Translations under genes and position numbers: made by a program
Notes under the pieces: model-generated
What the model saw: only the letters and a program-made list of their open reading frames with translations
Databases searched by the model: none
What the model was told of the DNA's origin: nothing
Assembly: GCA_025351765.1 (NCBI GenBank)
Contig: JANXVH010000071.1
Location: 1 to 64,000, forward strand
Length of the DNA: 64,000 nucleotides
From: Pedobacter sp.
GTDB taxonomy: Bacteria; Bacteroidota; Bacteroidia; Sphingobacteriales; Sphingobacteriaceae
Direction of reading: 5' to 3'
Shown here: piece by piece, positions 27,889-39,682 of the stretch
Layout: every line of letters starts with the position of its first letter
How positions within the stretch are numbered: the stretch's first letter is position 1

Positions 27889-28311
27889 ATGAGCGCAAAT
27901 GAAAATAGTGTTTCAGGAAATAAGGGTTCTGGCGACAAAATACACAGTTCAGATTTAGGAGAAACTAAGGATTTTAACAATTTATCTTTCGACAAAGAGA
28001 AGAATACTTTTGAAGTGGATGTGAAGGGTCCGGATAAAGATTATGATCACCCATTCCCTTATGAGACTCCTTCTGCAAATGGTGCCGACTCAAACTCGGA
28101 TTATGACGAAGCCAATCCGTATATTGGAGATGAGTATGCTAAAAAAGAAGACCAGATGGAAGGTGGGTTAGTAGATTTAGGAATGCATATCGATAATGGA
28201 GAGAGTATAATGCTTAATCCTGAAGATGAAATCCTTGCGCGTACACCTGAAGATGATCGGGATGATTTGGATGAAGAGGGTTATCCAATAAATGATGTTC
28301 CAGCCAATTAA
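27889..28311 (+). CDS. Acidic low-complexity protein of unknown function
   Basis: A 140-residue protein rich in Asp, Glu, Asn, Ser and Gly with few hydrophobic residues, and no signal peptide or membrane segment. It looks largely disordered and strongly acidic. Pro/Tyr-containing stretches such as DYDHPFPYETPS and DEANPYIGDEY and the C-terminal DDLDEEGYPINDVP suggest short binding motifs. It is not recognised as a named family. It has its own start after the icd terminator and is convergent with dnaX, whose stop lies 2 bp away. Confidence 0.6.
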   Translation: MSANENSVSGNKGSGDKIHSSDLGETKDFNNLSFDKEKNTFEVDVKGPDKDYDHPFPYETPSANGADSNSDYDEANPYIGDEYAKKEDQMEGGLVDLGMHIDNGESIMLNPEDEILARTPEDDRDDLDEEGYPINDVPAN

Positions 28312-28313
28312 TG

Positions 28314-30082
28314 TTAGCTATTAATATCCAAGTTAAATTTTTTTCGTAATTCTTCCAATTTAGGGTTTTTTTCTACCAGGTATTGATATTTTTCAGCACT
28401 TGTGTATAACCTATTTACCACTGCCCGAGTTACCTGTTTGGTTTTAATACTAATGTTGAAGTTCTTTAAACGCGGCCTAATGTAGTTCAATAATTCGATC
28501 ATCTCGTCTTGTAGCAATCCTTCCTGTAGTTTATGTTCTACATGTACTAATATGACATCATCATCTTGTAATAGCGGTTCTGAAGTGCTTAACAGGGTAT
28601 ATACATTTATTTTTCCTTCTTCTTTTACCTTATCGCTGTAGGCATTCCAACAATCTAAAAATTGCGCTGTGTTGAATACTTCCTTTGCGTCGCCTGTAAT
28701 ATATTTAGGCTCCTTATCGTCATCACCTGCTGCAACTCTTTCCAAATCAGTAAGTGAGGGTATTAAAGTGCTTGCCTTATTTTGATCTGATGGAGGATTT
28801 AAAGTTATCCTTCCGGTGGGATTACTAGCGGTAGATGAGGTAGATGTTTCGCGTACATTTATAGCAATAGGTGATGGTGGTTTTTTTGCCGCAGATTCTG
28901 TACGATCAGAACTTAGATTAGTTTTTTTTTTAATCTGATCTCTTCGTCAGTTGATGGGCTTGATTTCGATAGCTGTGCGAGATTGAGCACGGAAGGGATG
29001 TGGCACATCTTGATCAAGGAGAGTTCTACCTGTAATCGCTGGTTTTTGCTGCTCTTATAATTGAGGTCGCATTGATTGGCTAGGTTTAATGCTGTTAATA
29101 TGAATGATACCTGTGTAAGTTGACTTTGGTTGATATAGCGCTGTTTGATGTTTTCGCTTACTTCAAGTAAGCGGGTAGTTTGTGGGTCTTTTGCTACCAG
29201 TAAATTTCTAAGATGAGAAGATAAGCCGTTTATAAAATTGTTGCCATCAAAGCCATTGTTCAGGATATCGTCAAATAAGATGAGCACTTCGCTGACATTA
29301 GCGGTAGTTAGAAAATCGGTAAGCTTAAAATAATAATCGTAATCCAGGATGTTCAGGTTGGCGATTACAGATTTATAGGTTAGGTTTTTGTTGCTATAAC
29401 TTACAATCTGATCAAACATAGAAAGGGCATCCCTTAAACCACCATCTGCTTTTTGAGCAATAATATGTAGTCCGTCTTCCTCTACCTGGATCTCCTCACG
29501 TACTGCGATCTTGTTTAAAAGCGCTGCAATATCATCTACCTGTATCCTGTTGAAATCAAAGATCTGGCAACGGGAAAGAATAGTCGGCAGGATTTTATGT
29601 TTTTCTGTGGTAGCTAAAATAAAAATAGCATAGGAGGGTGGTTCTTCAAGCGTCTTTAAGAATGCGTTAAATGCATTTGCGGAAAGCATGTGCACCTCGT
29701 CTATAATATAGATTTTATATTTTCCAGCCTGTGGCGGAATGCGTACCTGATCTATCAGGCTCCTGATGTCATCTACTGAATTGTTAGACGCCGCATCCAA
29801 TTCATGAAAATTAAACGAATGACCTGTCTGGAAAGACACACAAGAATCGCATGTGCCGCAAGCTTCCTGATCTGCAGTTAAATTGGTGCAATTGATGGTT
29901 TTTGCAAGTATCCGTGCGCACGTTGTTTTACCGACACCCCGAGGACCGCAGAATAAAAATGCCTGAGCAAGCTGGTTATTTTTTATCGCATTTTTAAGCG
30001 TGCCCGTAATGTGCTGCTGACCAACAACGGTTTCAAACGTTGCCGGGCGATACTTACGAGCTGATACGATAAAGTTCTCCAT
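28314..30082 (-). CDS. dnaX: DNA polymerase III subunits gamma/tau, with -1 frameshift
   Basis: Clamp-loader ATPase encoded in two frames. The first frame (30082-28913) gives 389 residues: Walker A GPRGVGKTT (46-54), zinc module Cys65/75/78/81, Walker B IIDEVHML, and the SRC sensor in ILSRCQIF. It ends KKKLI just after a run of ten A. The -1 frame then runs to 28314, adding a Pro/Ser/Thr-rich linker and the C-terminal domain typical of Bacteroidota tau (ending KKFNLDINS). Tau would be about 589 residues and gamma 389. The layout matches dnaX genes that make gamma by slippage in Thermus or E. coli. A sequencing error in the A-run is the alternative. Treating 28314-28745 as a separate TTG-started gene is unlikely. 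Confidence 0.88.
28922..28931 (-). promoter_or_regulatory. A10 slippage site in dnaX
   Basis: On the coding strand, ten A read TTA AAA AAA AAA CTA ATC TAA in the zero frame; a -1 shift gives AAA ACT AAT CTA and the long C-terminal frame. Inverted repeats surround it: AGATTA/TAATCT (28936-28931 / 28920-28915), GATCAGA/TCTGATC (28940-28934 / 28910-28904) and TTCTG/CAGAA just downstream. Either transcriptional or ribosomal slippage could use it. Confidence 0.7.
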
Positions 30083-38154: not shown

Positions 38155-38688
38155 TTAATTCTGATTCTTATACAATTCTTCCAGCTCTTTTAGCCTTTGA
38201 ATTTGCAAGGGACGGGGATTGATAAAGGTACGTGCTTTTTTAACCAGCATAAAAGCATCATCATAGGTAAGGCCTGTTTTGAGTAGGTATGCGATAGTCA
38301 TGGTAGGGCCGCGCCCAAGACCCTGCCTACAATGGATATAGACCTTGCCGCCTTTTTTAATTTCTTGGTCTGCAAAATCTGCACCCCGCATCAATGCCCT
38401 AATGTCGGGGGGAGTGTTGTCTATGGTAGGCAGATGCAGGTAATTGAAACCGGCGTACTGGGCTTCATTGTAAACTGAGTATTCCCGCATGTTAATTATG
38501 GCCGTGATGCCCAAAGATTTCATCTTGCGCAGGCCGACCAAGTTGTACTGGCTGCCAAGAAAAAGGTTGGCCGTGATCTGACAGCGTTTTAGGGTAGGCA
38601 TTCCCATCAAGACCCGGTAAAGATTATCGTATACTTTGTGAAAAAATATGGCGATTAGTGTGAGTATACTTTTAATTTGCGCTAACAT
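38155..38688 (-). CDS. Dual-specificity/tyrosine phosphatase-like protein
   Basis: A 177-residue protein with a short N-terminal hydrophobic segment (about residues 5-18) and a phosphatase domain. The P-loop is HCRQGLGRG, satisfying CX5R, and the general-acid region is probably LPTIDNTPPD. The domain resembles atypical dual-specificity phosphatases, some of which act on phospholipids such as phosphatidylglycerophosphate (PTPMT1-like). It sits 1 bp after the lipid-kinase gene, and this pairing suggests a lipid-phosphate role rather than protein dephosphorylation, but that is inference. Confidence 0.8.
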   Translation of the reverse strand: MLAQIKSILTLIAIFFHKVYDNLYRVLMGMPTLKRCQITANLFLGSQYNLVGLRKMKSLGITAIINMREYSVYNEAQYAGFNYLHLPTIDNTPPDIRALMRGADFADQEIKKGGKVYIHCRQGLGRGPTMTIAYLLKTGLTYDDAFMLVKKARTFINPRPLQIQRLKELEELYKNQN

Positions 38689-38689
38689 G

Positions 38690-39577
38690 TTAATGGACTG
38701 ATTTGGCTGTCAGGATAAGAATTGAAGCGGGAACAACGGTAATGGTAATGGAGTCTGTAGTCTCTTCACGGTCATCACAAATCAAACTATGCGCCTGATC
38801 CATACGGATCATAATCTGTTTGCATTGCCAATGAATCAGCGCTTCGGTTTCGTTTTGCAGCAATGTGCTTCCGGCTACTTTGAGTACAGAAAGTAAGCTG
38901 GCATCTTTCATCAGGATAACGTCCAACAAACCGTCGGTAATGCTTATTCCAGGTTGCAATGCAAAATCACCGATACCTACATGACCCGAATTGGTCACGG
39001 TAAGTGAAACCCCGGTTTCCTCAAACACCACCCCATCTATCTCTAAATAATACTTTACTGGTTCAGCCTGAGCAATAGTTTTGATAGCGGTAATTCCATA
39101 AGCTAGCTGGCCAACACTGTTCTTGAGACTGCGATCGGCGTGTAGCACTATGTCTGCCATAATGCCGATATTCACCCTCAGTAAAAAGGGCTGACCATTA
39201 AATAGGCCCATGTCAATGGACTGCACTTCTTGGTCATCAGCTATAAGAAGTGCTAGTGCGTCTTCGGTTTCCAGTGGAATTCCCAGCTCTCTGGCCATTA
39301 TGTTAGCTGTACCGCCGGGAATAATTGCAAGGGGTGTCTTACTGCCATGGAGTGCAGTTGCAACTTCAGTTGCACATCCATCCCCGCCATATACGGCTAT
39401 CAAGTCCGTTGTTCCGAGAAGTTCAGTAGCAATTTCACCAGCGCCCCTGTTCTTTTTGGTAACGTAAATATCCCAGTCAATGCCTGTACCCTCAAGTGCC
39501 TGATTGATTATTGAAAGTATAGGTTTGGGTTTGCCCGATGCCGGGTTAATAATAAAACAAATGTGTTTAAACTTCAT
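38690..39577 (-). CDS. Diacylglycerol/sphingosine kinase-family lipid kinase
   Basis: A 295-residue soluble kinase of the DAGK_cat family (YegS/DgkB-like). It has FIINPASGKPK at the start, the nucleotide-binding YGGDGCATEVA (usually GGDGTxNEV), the PGGTANIMARELGIP loop, and a C-terminal beta domain with GDFALQPGISITDGLLDV. The start at 39577 is chosen over a TTG at 39589. The enzyme should phosphorylate a diacylglycerol-like or other lipid at the membrane. It is followed directly by the phosphatase gene, so opposing steps may be encoded together. Confidence 0.88.
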   Translation of the reverse strand: MKFKHICFIINPASGKPKPILSIINQALEGTGIDWDIYVTKKNRGAGEIATELLGTTDLIAVYGGDGCATEVATALHGSKTPLAIIPGGTANIMARELGIPLETEDALALLIADDQEVQSIDMGLFNGQPFLLRVNIGIMADIVLHADRSLKNSVGQLAYGITAIKTIAQAEPVKYYLEIDGVVFEETGVSLTVTNSGHVGIGDFALQPGISITDGLLDVILMKDASLLSVLKVAGSTLLQNETEALIHWQCKQIMIRMDQAHSLICDDREETTDSITITVVPASILILTAKSVH

Positions 39578-39682
39578 AATAATGAACAAGTTTTACTTAG
39601 GAGTGGTCGGTCTATCAACAAGATTAAAAGTGATAGGTTTATGTTAGAGGATTAAGCTTTTGTTAAATAATCCGGTAACGAA

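Follow-up and report, generated by a model that had tools for sequence, protein, structure and literature searches.

A ten-adenine run at the gamma/tau junction of Pedobacter dnaX as a probable site of programmed transcriptional slippage

Introduction

The dnaX gene of Thermus thermophilus was reportedly described by Larsen in 2000 as a case of transcriptional slippage. As summarized in PMC1088944 and PMC5009743, slippage on a run of nine or more adenines (A9+) allows gamma and tau to be made from this one Thermus gene, and the latter source, a 2016 review, suggests that the use of slippage by Thermus may be explained by its having separate tRNAs for lysine. Escherichia coli dnaX is presented in PMC5009743 and PMC3711429 as an instance of -1 ribosomal frameshifting at A_AAA_AAG, stimulated by a 3' stem-loop and an SD-like element. 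Two further points in the 2016 review bear on the present locus, namely that polymerase slippage in a Roseiflexus IS element is stimulated by a hairpin lying right at the 5' side of the tract, and that a single nucleotide can reverse the roles of the two products when efficiency is near 50%. A reversed dnaX organization is already published: the dnaX section of Antonov et al. 2013 (PMC3711429) describes genes made of two open reading frames (ORFs), with gamma in the zero frame and tau reached by a -1 shift at the DNA level, reports ten adenines in nine of 17 such genes, and proposes transcriptional realignment.

Here we describe the dnaX gene of a 64,000-nucleotide stretch of Pedobacter sp. 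DNA (assembly GCA_025351765.1, contig JANXVH010000071.1, positions 1 to 64,000), referred to below as the window, together with its counterparts in related genomes. A run of ten adenines (A10) at the gamma/tau junction is a good candidate for programmed transcriptional slippage, which we consider probable, and very probably causes the cell to yield both a short and a long DnaX, gamma and tau. From sequence comparison we infer three separate points, that slippage occurs, that it is transcriptional, and that both proteins are made.

The dnaX junction in the window

On the minus strand of the window, two dnaX frames meet at a run of exactly ten adenines (28922-28931, read from 28931 down to 28922), as the initial annotation had claimed. 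The zero frame reads AGA TTA AAA AAA AAA CTA ATC TAA across the run and closes a 389-residue ORF (28913-30082, minus strand) that encodes gamma, with its AAA+ ATPase, lid and domain III; the stop codon TAA (28913-28915) lies two sense codons past the run. A shift to the -1 frame opens a tau-specific tail of 202 residues (28314-28921, minus strand), whose first codon also takes the last A of the run, in good agreement with the gamma length, stop position and tail of about 200 residues given by the initial annotation. The gamma part matches the gamma/tau family NCBIfam NF011531 (residues 1-370; profile positions 1-365), as well as TIGR02397 and Pfam PF13177, PF22608 and PF12169, and the 202 residues that follow the run correspond to positions 426-613 of NF011531, the end of the model (E 1.2e-31). 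Because both match the same family model, the zero frame and the -1 frame are two parts of one dnaX. From the run onward the -1 frame has 205 open codons; its end at 28314 leaves 2 nt to a convergent plus-strand ORF that ends at 28311. Counted from the run, the zero frame stops after 5 codons and the third (+1) frame within 3, at a TAA (28918-28920, minus strand).

The window shares with Thermus-type slippage a homopolymeric run of A9 or longer at the gamma/tau boundary and nearby stops in the non-tau frames. A single ORF encoding tau is absent from the window, whereas 89 of the 93 distinct genes of the genus are tau-first, one of them, L120, with a later stop; the window is in this respect a reversed variant; it has gamma in the zero frame, tau in the -1 frame and a poly-A junction, the features by which PMC3711429 defines reversed dnaX.

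Counted over both strands, the source genome contains 15 A-runs of ten or more, compared with 571 exact A8 and 110 exact A9 runs, and some of the 15 sit within other long ORFs. Rarity of A10 was for this reason dropped as an argument, and the case for the site rests on conservation. The A10 or A11 runs L296 and L297 (source-genome contig C127) and L298 (C132), which lie within other long open frames, two of them in one ORF, are possible further slippage sites.

Conservation of the run and of the tau tail

Among the best 80 matches of one scan, 74 of the 80 named loci carry A9-A11 at the same junction, and the six exceptions are Pontibacter with A7; 19 of the 80 are Pedobacter (L009-L027), at 82-91% identity. 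A first set of 255 loci, including stretches of further genomes, gave 232 distinct genes, and 213 of these carry at least A9. The addition of 60 loci from Flavobacterium and the Hymenobacter family, and the removal of genes identical over 750 nt, gave a final set of 288 genes, an uneven sample in which 93 come from the genus of the window. Matches to the query were found in 145 genomes of the genus, base-by-base reading covering those whose loci were extracted, and in 143 genomes of the phylum, from which 60 stretches were taken.

A run of A9-A11 is present at the junction in 266 of the 288 distinct genes (A9 in 26, A10 in 227 and A11 in 13). Broken down by group, the run occurs in all 93 genus genes, in 153 of the remaining 163 genes of the class, and in 20 of 32 genes outside the class. 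Across Pedobacter, relatives combine one open frame with the same A-run, and no close relative in the genus was found with a single frame and no run, a finding that would have spoken against the initial annotation. The six Pontibacter genes (L058, L060, L062, L063, L064 and L080) have lost the A9+ run and retain A7 before a G (A_AAA_AAA_G), and their -1 frame stops 3 codons later; ribosomal frameshifting may have taken the place of polymerase slippage in them. Two gamma-first genes of the Hymenobacter family (L354, L356) have only A6 or A7 followed by G, and L354, whose tau lies in the -1 frame, has the heptamer of E. coli, A_AAA_AAG. In eight Hymenobacter-family genomes (G563, G579, G598, G601, G616, G622, G631 and G633), the dnaX query matches in two pieces around residue 67 that share the same long open frame, likely a lineage-specific in-frame insertion.

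The surroundings of the run are also constrained. The register, stop and hairpin counts given here and below cover genes with A9 or longer. Of 176 tau-first genes, 154 have a stop within 8 codons in each of the two alternative frames, compared with 25% of control positions in the same genes, a figure that covers related rows and is not a probability; of 37 gamma-first genes, 32 have stops within the same distance in both the zero and the third frame. Within the genus the codons flanking the run show synonymous fixation, while those farther upstream vary. Among the 89 A10 tau-first genes used for codon counts, the codons before the run are ACT in 88 of 88 (25% usage in those genes), GAC in 81 of 88 (26% usage) and CAG in 89 of 89 (57% usage), and the codon after it is ACT in 87 of 89 (25% usage).

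The tail beyond the run is open for more than 200 codons in 92 of 93 genus genes. For most pairs that involve the window, dN/dS is incomputable because synonymous sites are saturated (pS 0.73-0.91), and raw pN and pS were used instead. Relative to its nearest relative, L090, the tau tail of the window has a pN of 0.25 and a pS of 0.81, and it is no farther from L010 (distance 0.254) than L090 is (0.282); by these sequence measures the tail is a conserved protein. The conserved run, the conserved nearby stops in the alternative frames and the conservation of the tau tail as protein strongly support the earlier prediction of a slippage site that would give both gamma and tau.

Switching of the reading register

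The register of tau relative to the run is variable. Tau lies in the zero frame, as it does in Thermus and E. coli, in 198 of the 266 run-bearing genes, needs a -1 shift in 64, the window included, and needs a +1 shift in 4. In Pedobacter, A10 is combined with a zero-frame tau in 89 of the 93 distinct genes. The two-frame layout that the initial annotation assigned to the window is correct, yet it overlooked both that the usual polarity of the genus is the opposite one and that the break is due to two extra bases. One of the 89 tau-first genes, L120, has a zero frame that stops 68 codons past the run; this single-contig Pedobacter genome has a second frame break within the tau tail. The four exceptions are the window, L102 (A11), L119 (A9) and L121 (A9), the last three differing by run length.

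Relatives of the window mostly read ACT GAC NNN GAT CAG, then ATT, GAT, ACT or CTT, then A10, whereas the window reads ACT GAC GAA GAG ATC AGA TT A10. Compared with the other A10 Pedobacter genes read, the window has two extra bases (GA), placed at GAGA (28939-28942, minus strand; L090: GAAGATCAG; window: GAAGAGATCAG), and the run itself is unchanged. The frame break stems from these bases beside the run and not from the run, and the default product in the window genome appears, from its sequence, to have flipped from long to short.

Such changes are not confined to the window. On a FastTree tree of the gamma proteins of 232 genes, the register changed at least 18 times among the 213 run-bearing rows, and nine times once nine rows that switch alone, one of them the window, are dropped. 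In three of the four +1 genes (L102, L185 and L331) the frame is altered solely by A11 where neighbours have A10, which could reflect sequencing errors; L221 is the only +1 gene outside this pattern. More generally, A9 or A11 runs in lone genomes may be errors. Entire clades are gamma-first, for example the Algoriphagus rows, and in a Flavobacterium-like genus 78 of 80 near-full-length matches (from 81 genomes) are gamma-first as suggested by open-frame lengths. Because whole clades are gamma-first, the reversed state as such is no sequencing error.

These clades also bear on the possibility that the GA of the window is an assembly or strain-mixture error and that the true gene is tau-first with an A10 site, an explanation that touches the flip only and is compatible with either mechanism discussed below. 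We regard it as unlikely, despite the presence of GA in one assembly only, its absence from every other genus gene read including the nearest, L090, and the fragmented state of the genome (174 contigs, 95% complete). The GA site is not a homopolymer, and register switches occur elsewhere, including in whole clades such as Algoriphagus and Flavobacterium. Moreover, no split gene was found in 10 of the 55 window ORFs, chosen as overlapping or adjoining a same-strand neighbour; nine of the ten match families and one matches none, and two match parts of one fusion model (NF009025) in reversed order. These two are a dual-specificity phosphatase gene (38155-38688) and the adjoining YegS-type lipid kinase gene (38690-39589), NF009025 being a family of fused proteins with the opposite order.

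RNA structure around the run

In the class outside Pedobacter, a stable predicted hairpin often lies immediately 5' of the run. The 30 nt that end at the run have a mean folding energy of -8.4 kcal/mol, compared with -2.4 to -4.0 at 14 other offsets, and reach -8 kcal/mol or lower in 100 of 153 rows, compared with 4-27 at other offsets; after thinning to less than 85% identity the mean is -7.2, compared with -2.3 to -4.0, and 13 of 35 rows reach the threshold, compared with 0-5. The predicted stem abuts the run directly in 89 of 173 non-genus rows. A looser count of hairpins, with at least 5 pairs and an end at most 4 nt from the run, finds 141 of 173, compared with 58-82 at control places, or 31 of 54 compared with 19-24 after the same thinning. 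Protein-preserving recoding gives weaker support for the hairpin than the positional test: 49 of 173 non-genus rows have p<=0.05, compared with 10-20 of the same 173 when four control places are taken, and the 38-row Flavobacterium set accounts for 30 of the 49. Neither other classes of the phylum (4 of 20 run-bearing rows with a 5' flank at -8 or lower) nor genes without the run (2 of 22) show the hairpin.

Covariation in the Flavobacterium-type hairpin (37 rows, 15 distinct) is modest: two pairs vary in both arms of the stem, pairing is lost in 10 of 120 cells, and the share of cells that pair is 91.7%, compared with at most 90.8% in 1000 shuffles. Most Flavobacterium-type rows (L219-L229, L302-L330) have a hairpin, CTCYATC-loop-GATGGAG, that ends exactly at A10, and a few, such as L316 and L319, have compensatory variants of it.

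Pedobacter itself is a different case. A CTGA/TCAG stem with loops of 6-8 nt occurs in 90 of 93 genus genes, the window included, where the weak candidate stem (28935-28950, minus strand) pairs CTGA (28950-28947) with TCAG (28938-28935) around an 8-nt loop and ends 3 nt 5' of the run. The Pedobacter upstream stem reaches -2.4 to -3.4 kcal/mol in the ten genes folded, and it is no more stable than shuffles (mean z -0.15); none of 93 genus genes has a hairpin at p<=0.05 by protein-preserving recoding, and in the genus the segment preceding the run does not stand out as stable within its gene (mean rank 0.56). The 5' hairpin of Pedobacter is, by these predictions, at best vestigial, and because of this a role for a hairpin in the window itself would have to be read across from relatives.

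On the 3' side, the genus shows at most a slight excess of structure (mean z -0.61, compared with -0.41 and -0.12 for two controls), and outside the genus the flank has no structure beyond that of control stretches (mean z -0.35, compared with -0.06 and -0.33). No clear conserved 3' stem-loop stimulator of the E. coli type was found among relatives, and the Rfam DnaX frameshift element is absent among the three matches at E<=10. GAAGAG lies upstream of the run in the window, and the codon at that place varies in relatives. In the window, the region around the run has a more stable fold than shuffled sequences (z -2.81 and -2.52 in two analyses). The initial annotation had pointed to three inverted repeats around the run as possible causes of pausing; all three are present in the window, but among the 93 distinct genes of the genus the window alone has the full set (AGATTA/TAATCT is found in 5, GATCAGA/TCTGATC in 1 and TTCTG/CAGAA in 3 of the 93). 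The repeats are not conserved and were rejected as stimulators.

A proposed model of transcriptional slippage

In the model that we favour, RNA polymerase would slip on A10 (T10 in the template) to give dnaX mRNAs that differ in the number of A residues, one class of which would be translated normally to gamma, with its stop just past the run, and another to tau. In the window genome, the unslipped mRNA would encode gamma, and mRNAs that had gained one A (or had gained four or lost two) would encode tau; in the 89 of 93 Pedobacter genes with A10 in the other register, the unslipped mRNA would encode tau and the slipped mRNA gamma. The extra GA, 8-11 nt upstream of the run, would have reversed the roles, a reversal that could be tolerated because both products would be made either way. 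In related clades, the hairpin immediately 5' of the run is a probable stimulator of slippage.

RNA-polymerase slippage is favoured over ribosomal frameshifting because stops lie near in both alternative frames, register switches are bidirectional, there are two kinds of tRNA-Lys, and no 3' structure is clearly conserved; the source genome has at least two tRNA-Lys(CUU) and at least two tRNA-Lys(UUU) genes (30 of 33 tRNA matches scanned). The strongest support comes from the predicted 5' hairpin of relatives, which has the geometry of hairpin-stimulated slippage (PMC5009743). Some observations do weigh against slippage, among them the weak stem of Pedobacter and the presence of A10 or A11 in a few other long ORFs of the genome.

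Others favour a programmed -1 shift by the ribosome at A_AAA_AAA, a mechanism of the kind described for E. coli dnaX; it would give tau in the window and gamma in relatives, and we judge it unlikely. A_AAA_AAA within A10 is itself a ribosomal slip site, 64 of the 68 switched genes need the -1 shift that ribosomal frameshifting could supply, and three of the four +1 genes rest on A11; nevertheless at least one gene, L221, needs +1. The -1 stop is near in tau-first genes, at a median of 4 codons, but the +1 stop is kept near too, at a median of 5. The run is followed by C, so that A_AAA_AAG of E. coli is missing and A_AAA_AAA is the only heptamer, and the cell has a tRNA-Lys for AAG besides one for AAA. 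As for stimulators, the slight excess of 3' structure in the genus would suit a ribosomal mechanism, whereas the 3' flank outside the genus and the Rfam matches at E<=10 offer nothing of the kind, and the hairpin of relatives lies on the 5' side, so placed that a ribosome positioned on the run would presumably have melted it already. A recent frameshift mutation that killed tau and left gamma as sole product would account for the zero frame that ends at gamma, but is highly improbable given that the tail is open for 205 codons and conserved as in relatives, that A10 is retained, and that nearly all genus genes keep an open tail past the run.

With polymerase slippage as the preferred mechanism, we give an even chance to a broader reading, that the class has an old terminator-like dnaX switch, composed of the hairpin and A10, which sets the gamma:tau ratio whatever the register. 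The register would then be nearly neutral and would drift, and tau-first and gamma-first genes would therefore replace each other repeatedly, even within a genus, with the window as one such flip.

If the slippage model is right, dnaX of a whole bacterial class would allow programmed transcriptional slippage to be studied in a core replication gene whose run length, register and hairpin strength vary naturally. Annotations of dnaX in this group as frameshifted, or as a short gamma only, may be wrong, and A9 or A11 at the dnaX junction need not be sequencing errors.

Comparison with known systems

Thermus dnaX, in the sources cited above, resembles the window in its A9+ run, near stops in both other frames, production of two products from one gene, and two types of lysine tRNA, and differs in being tau-first where the window is gamma-first. 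E. coli dnaX is the same gene with the same two products, whereas the window lacks A_AAA_AAG and a clear conserved 3' structure. The Roseiflexus IS, as presented in PMC5009743, has a hairpin directly 5' of the tract, as do many relatives of the class outside Pedobacter, but its tract is a T5C5 heteropolymer that undergoes only a one-C deletion within an IS element, and the stem of the window is weak.

The closest described genes are the reversed dnaX genes of Antonov et al., which the window matches in its zero-frame gamma, -1 tau and ten adenines. The dnaX section of that paper (PMC3711429) does not discuss tau-first relatives that carry the same run, within-genus switching, or a 5' hairpin, and it is relative to that section that these three are new here; the clades described here may overlap with its species. 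Among the matches listed from open-licence PMC literature, titles and the starts of abstracts likewise include none on a 5' hairpin at the dnaX A-run or on register switching in Bacteroidota. As far as that literature shows, what is new is the class-wide run, its repeated switching of register down to the species level, in the window by GA, and the hairpin on its 5' side.
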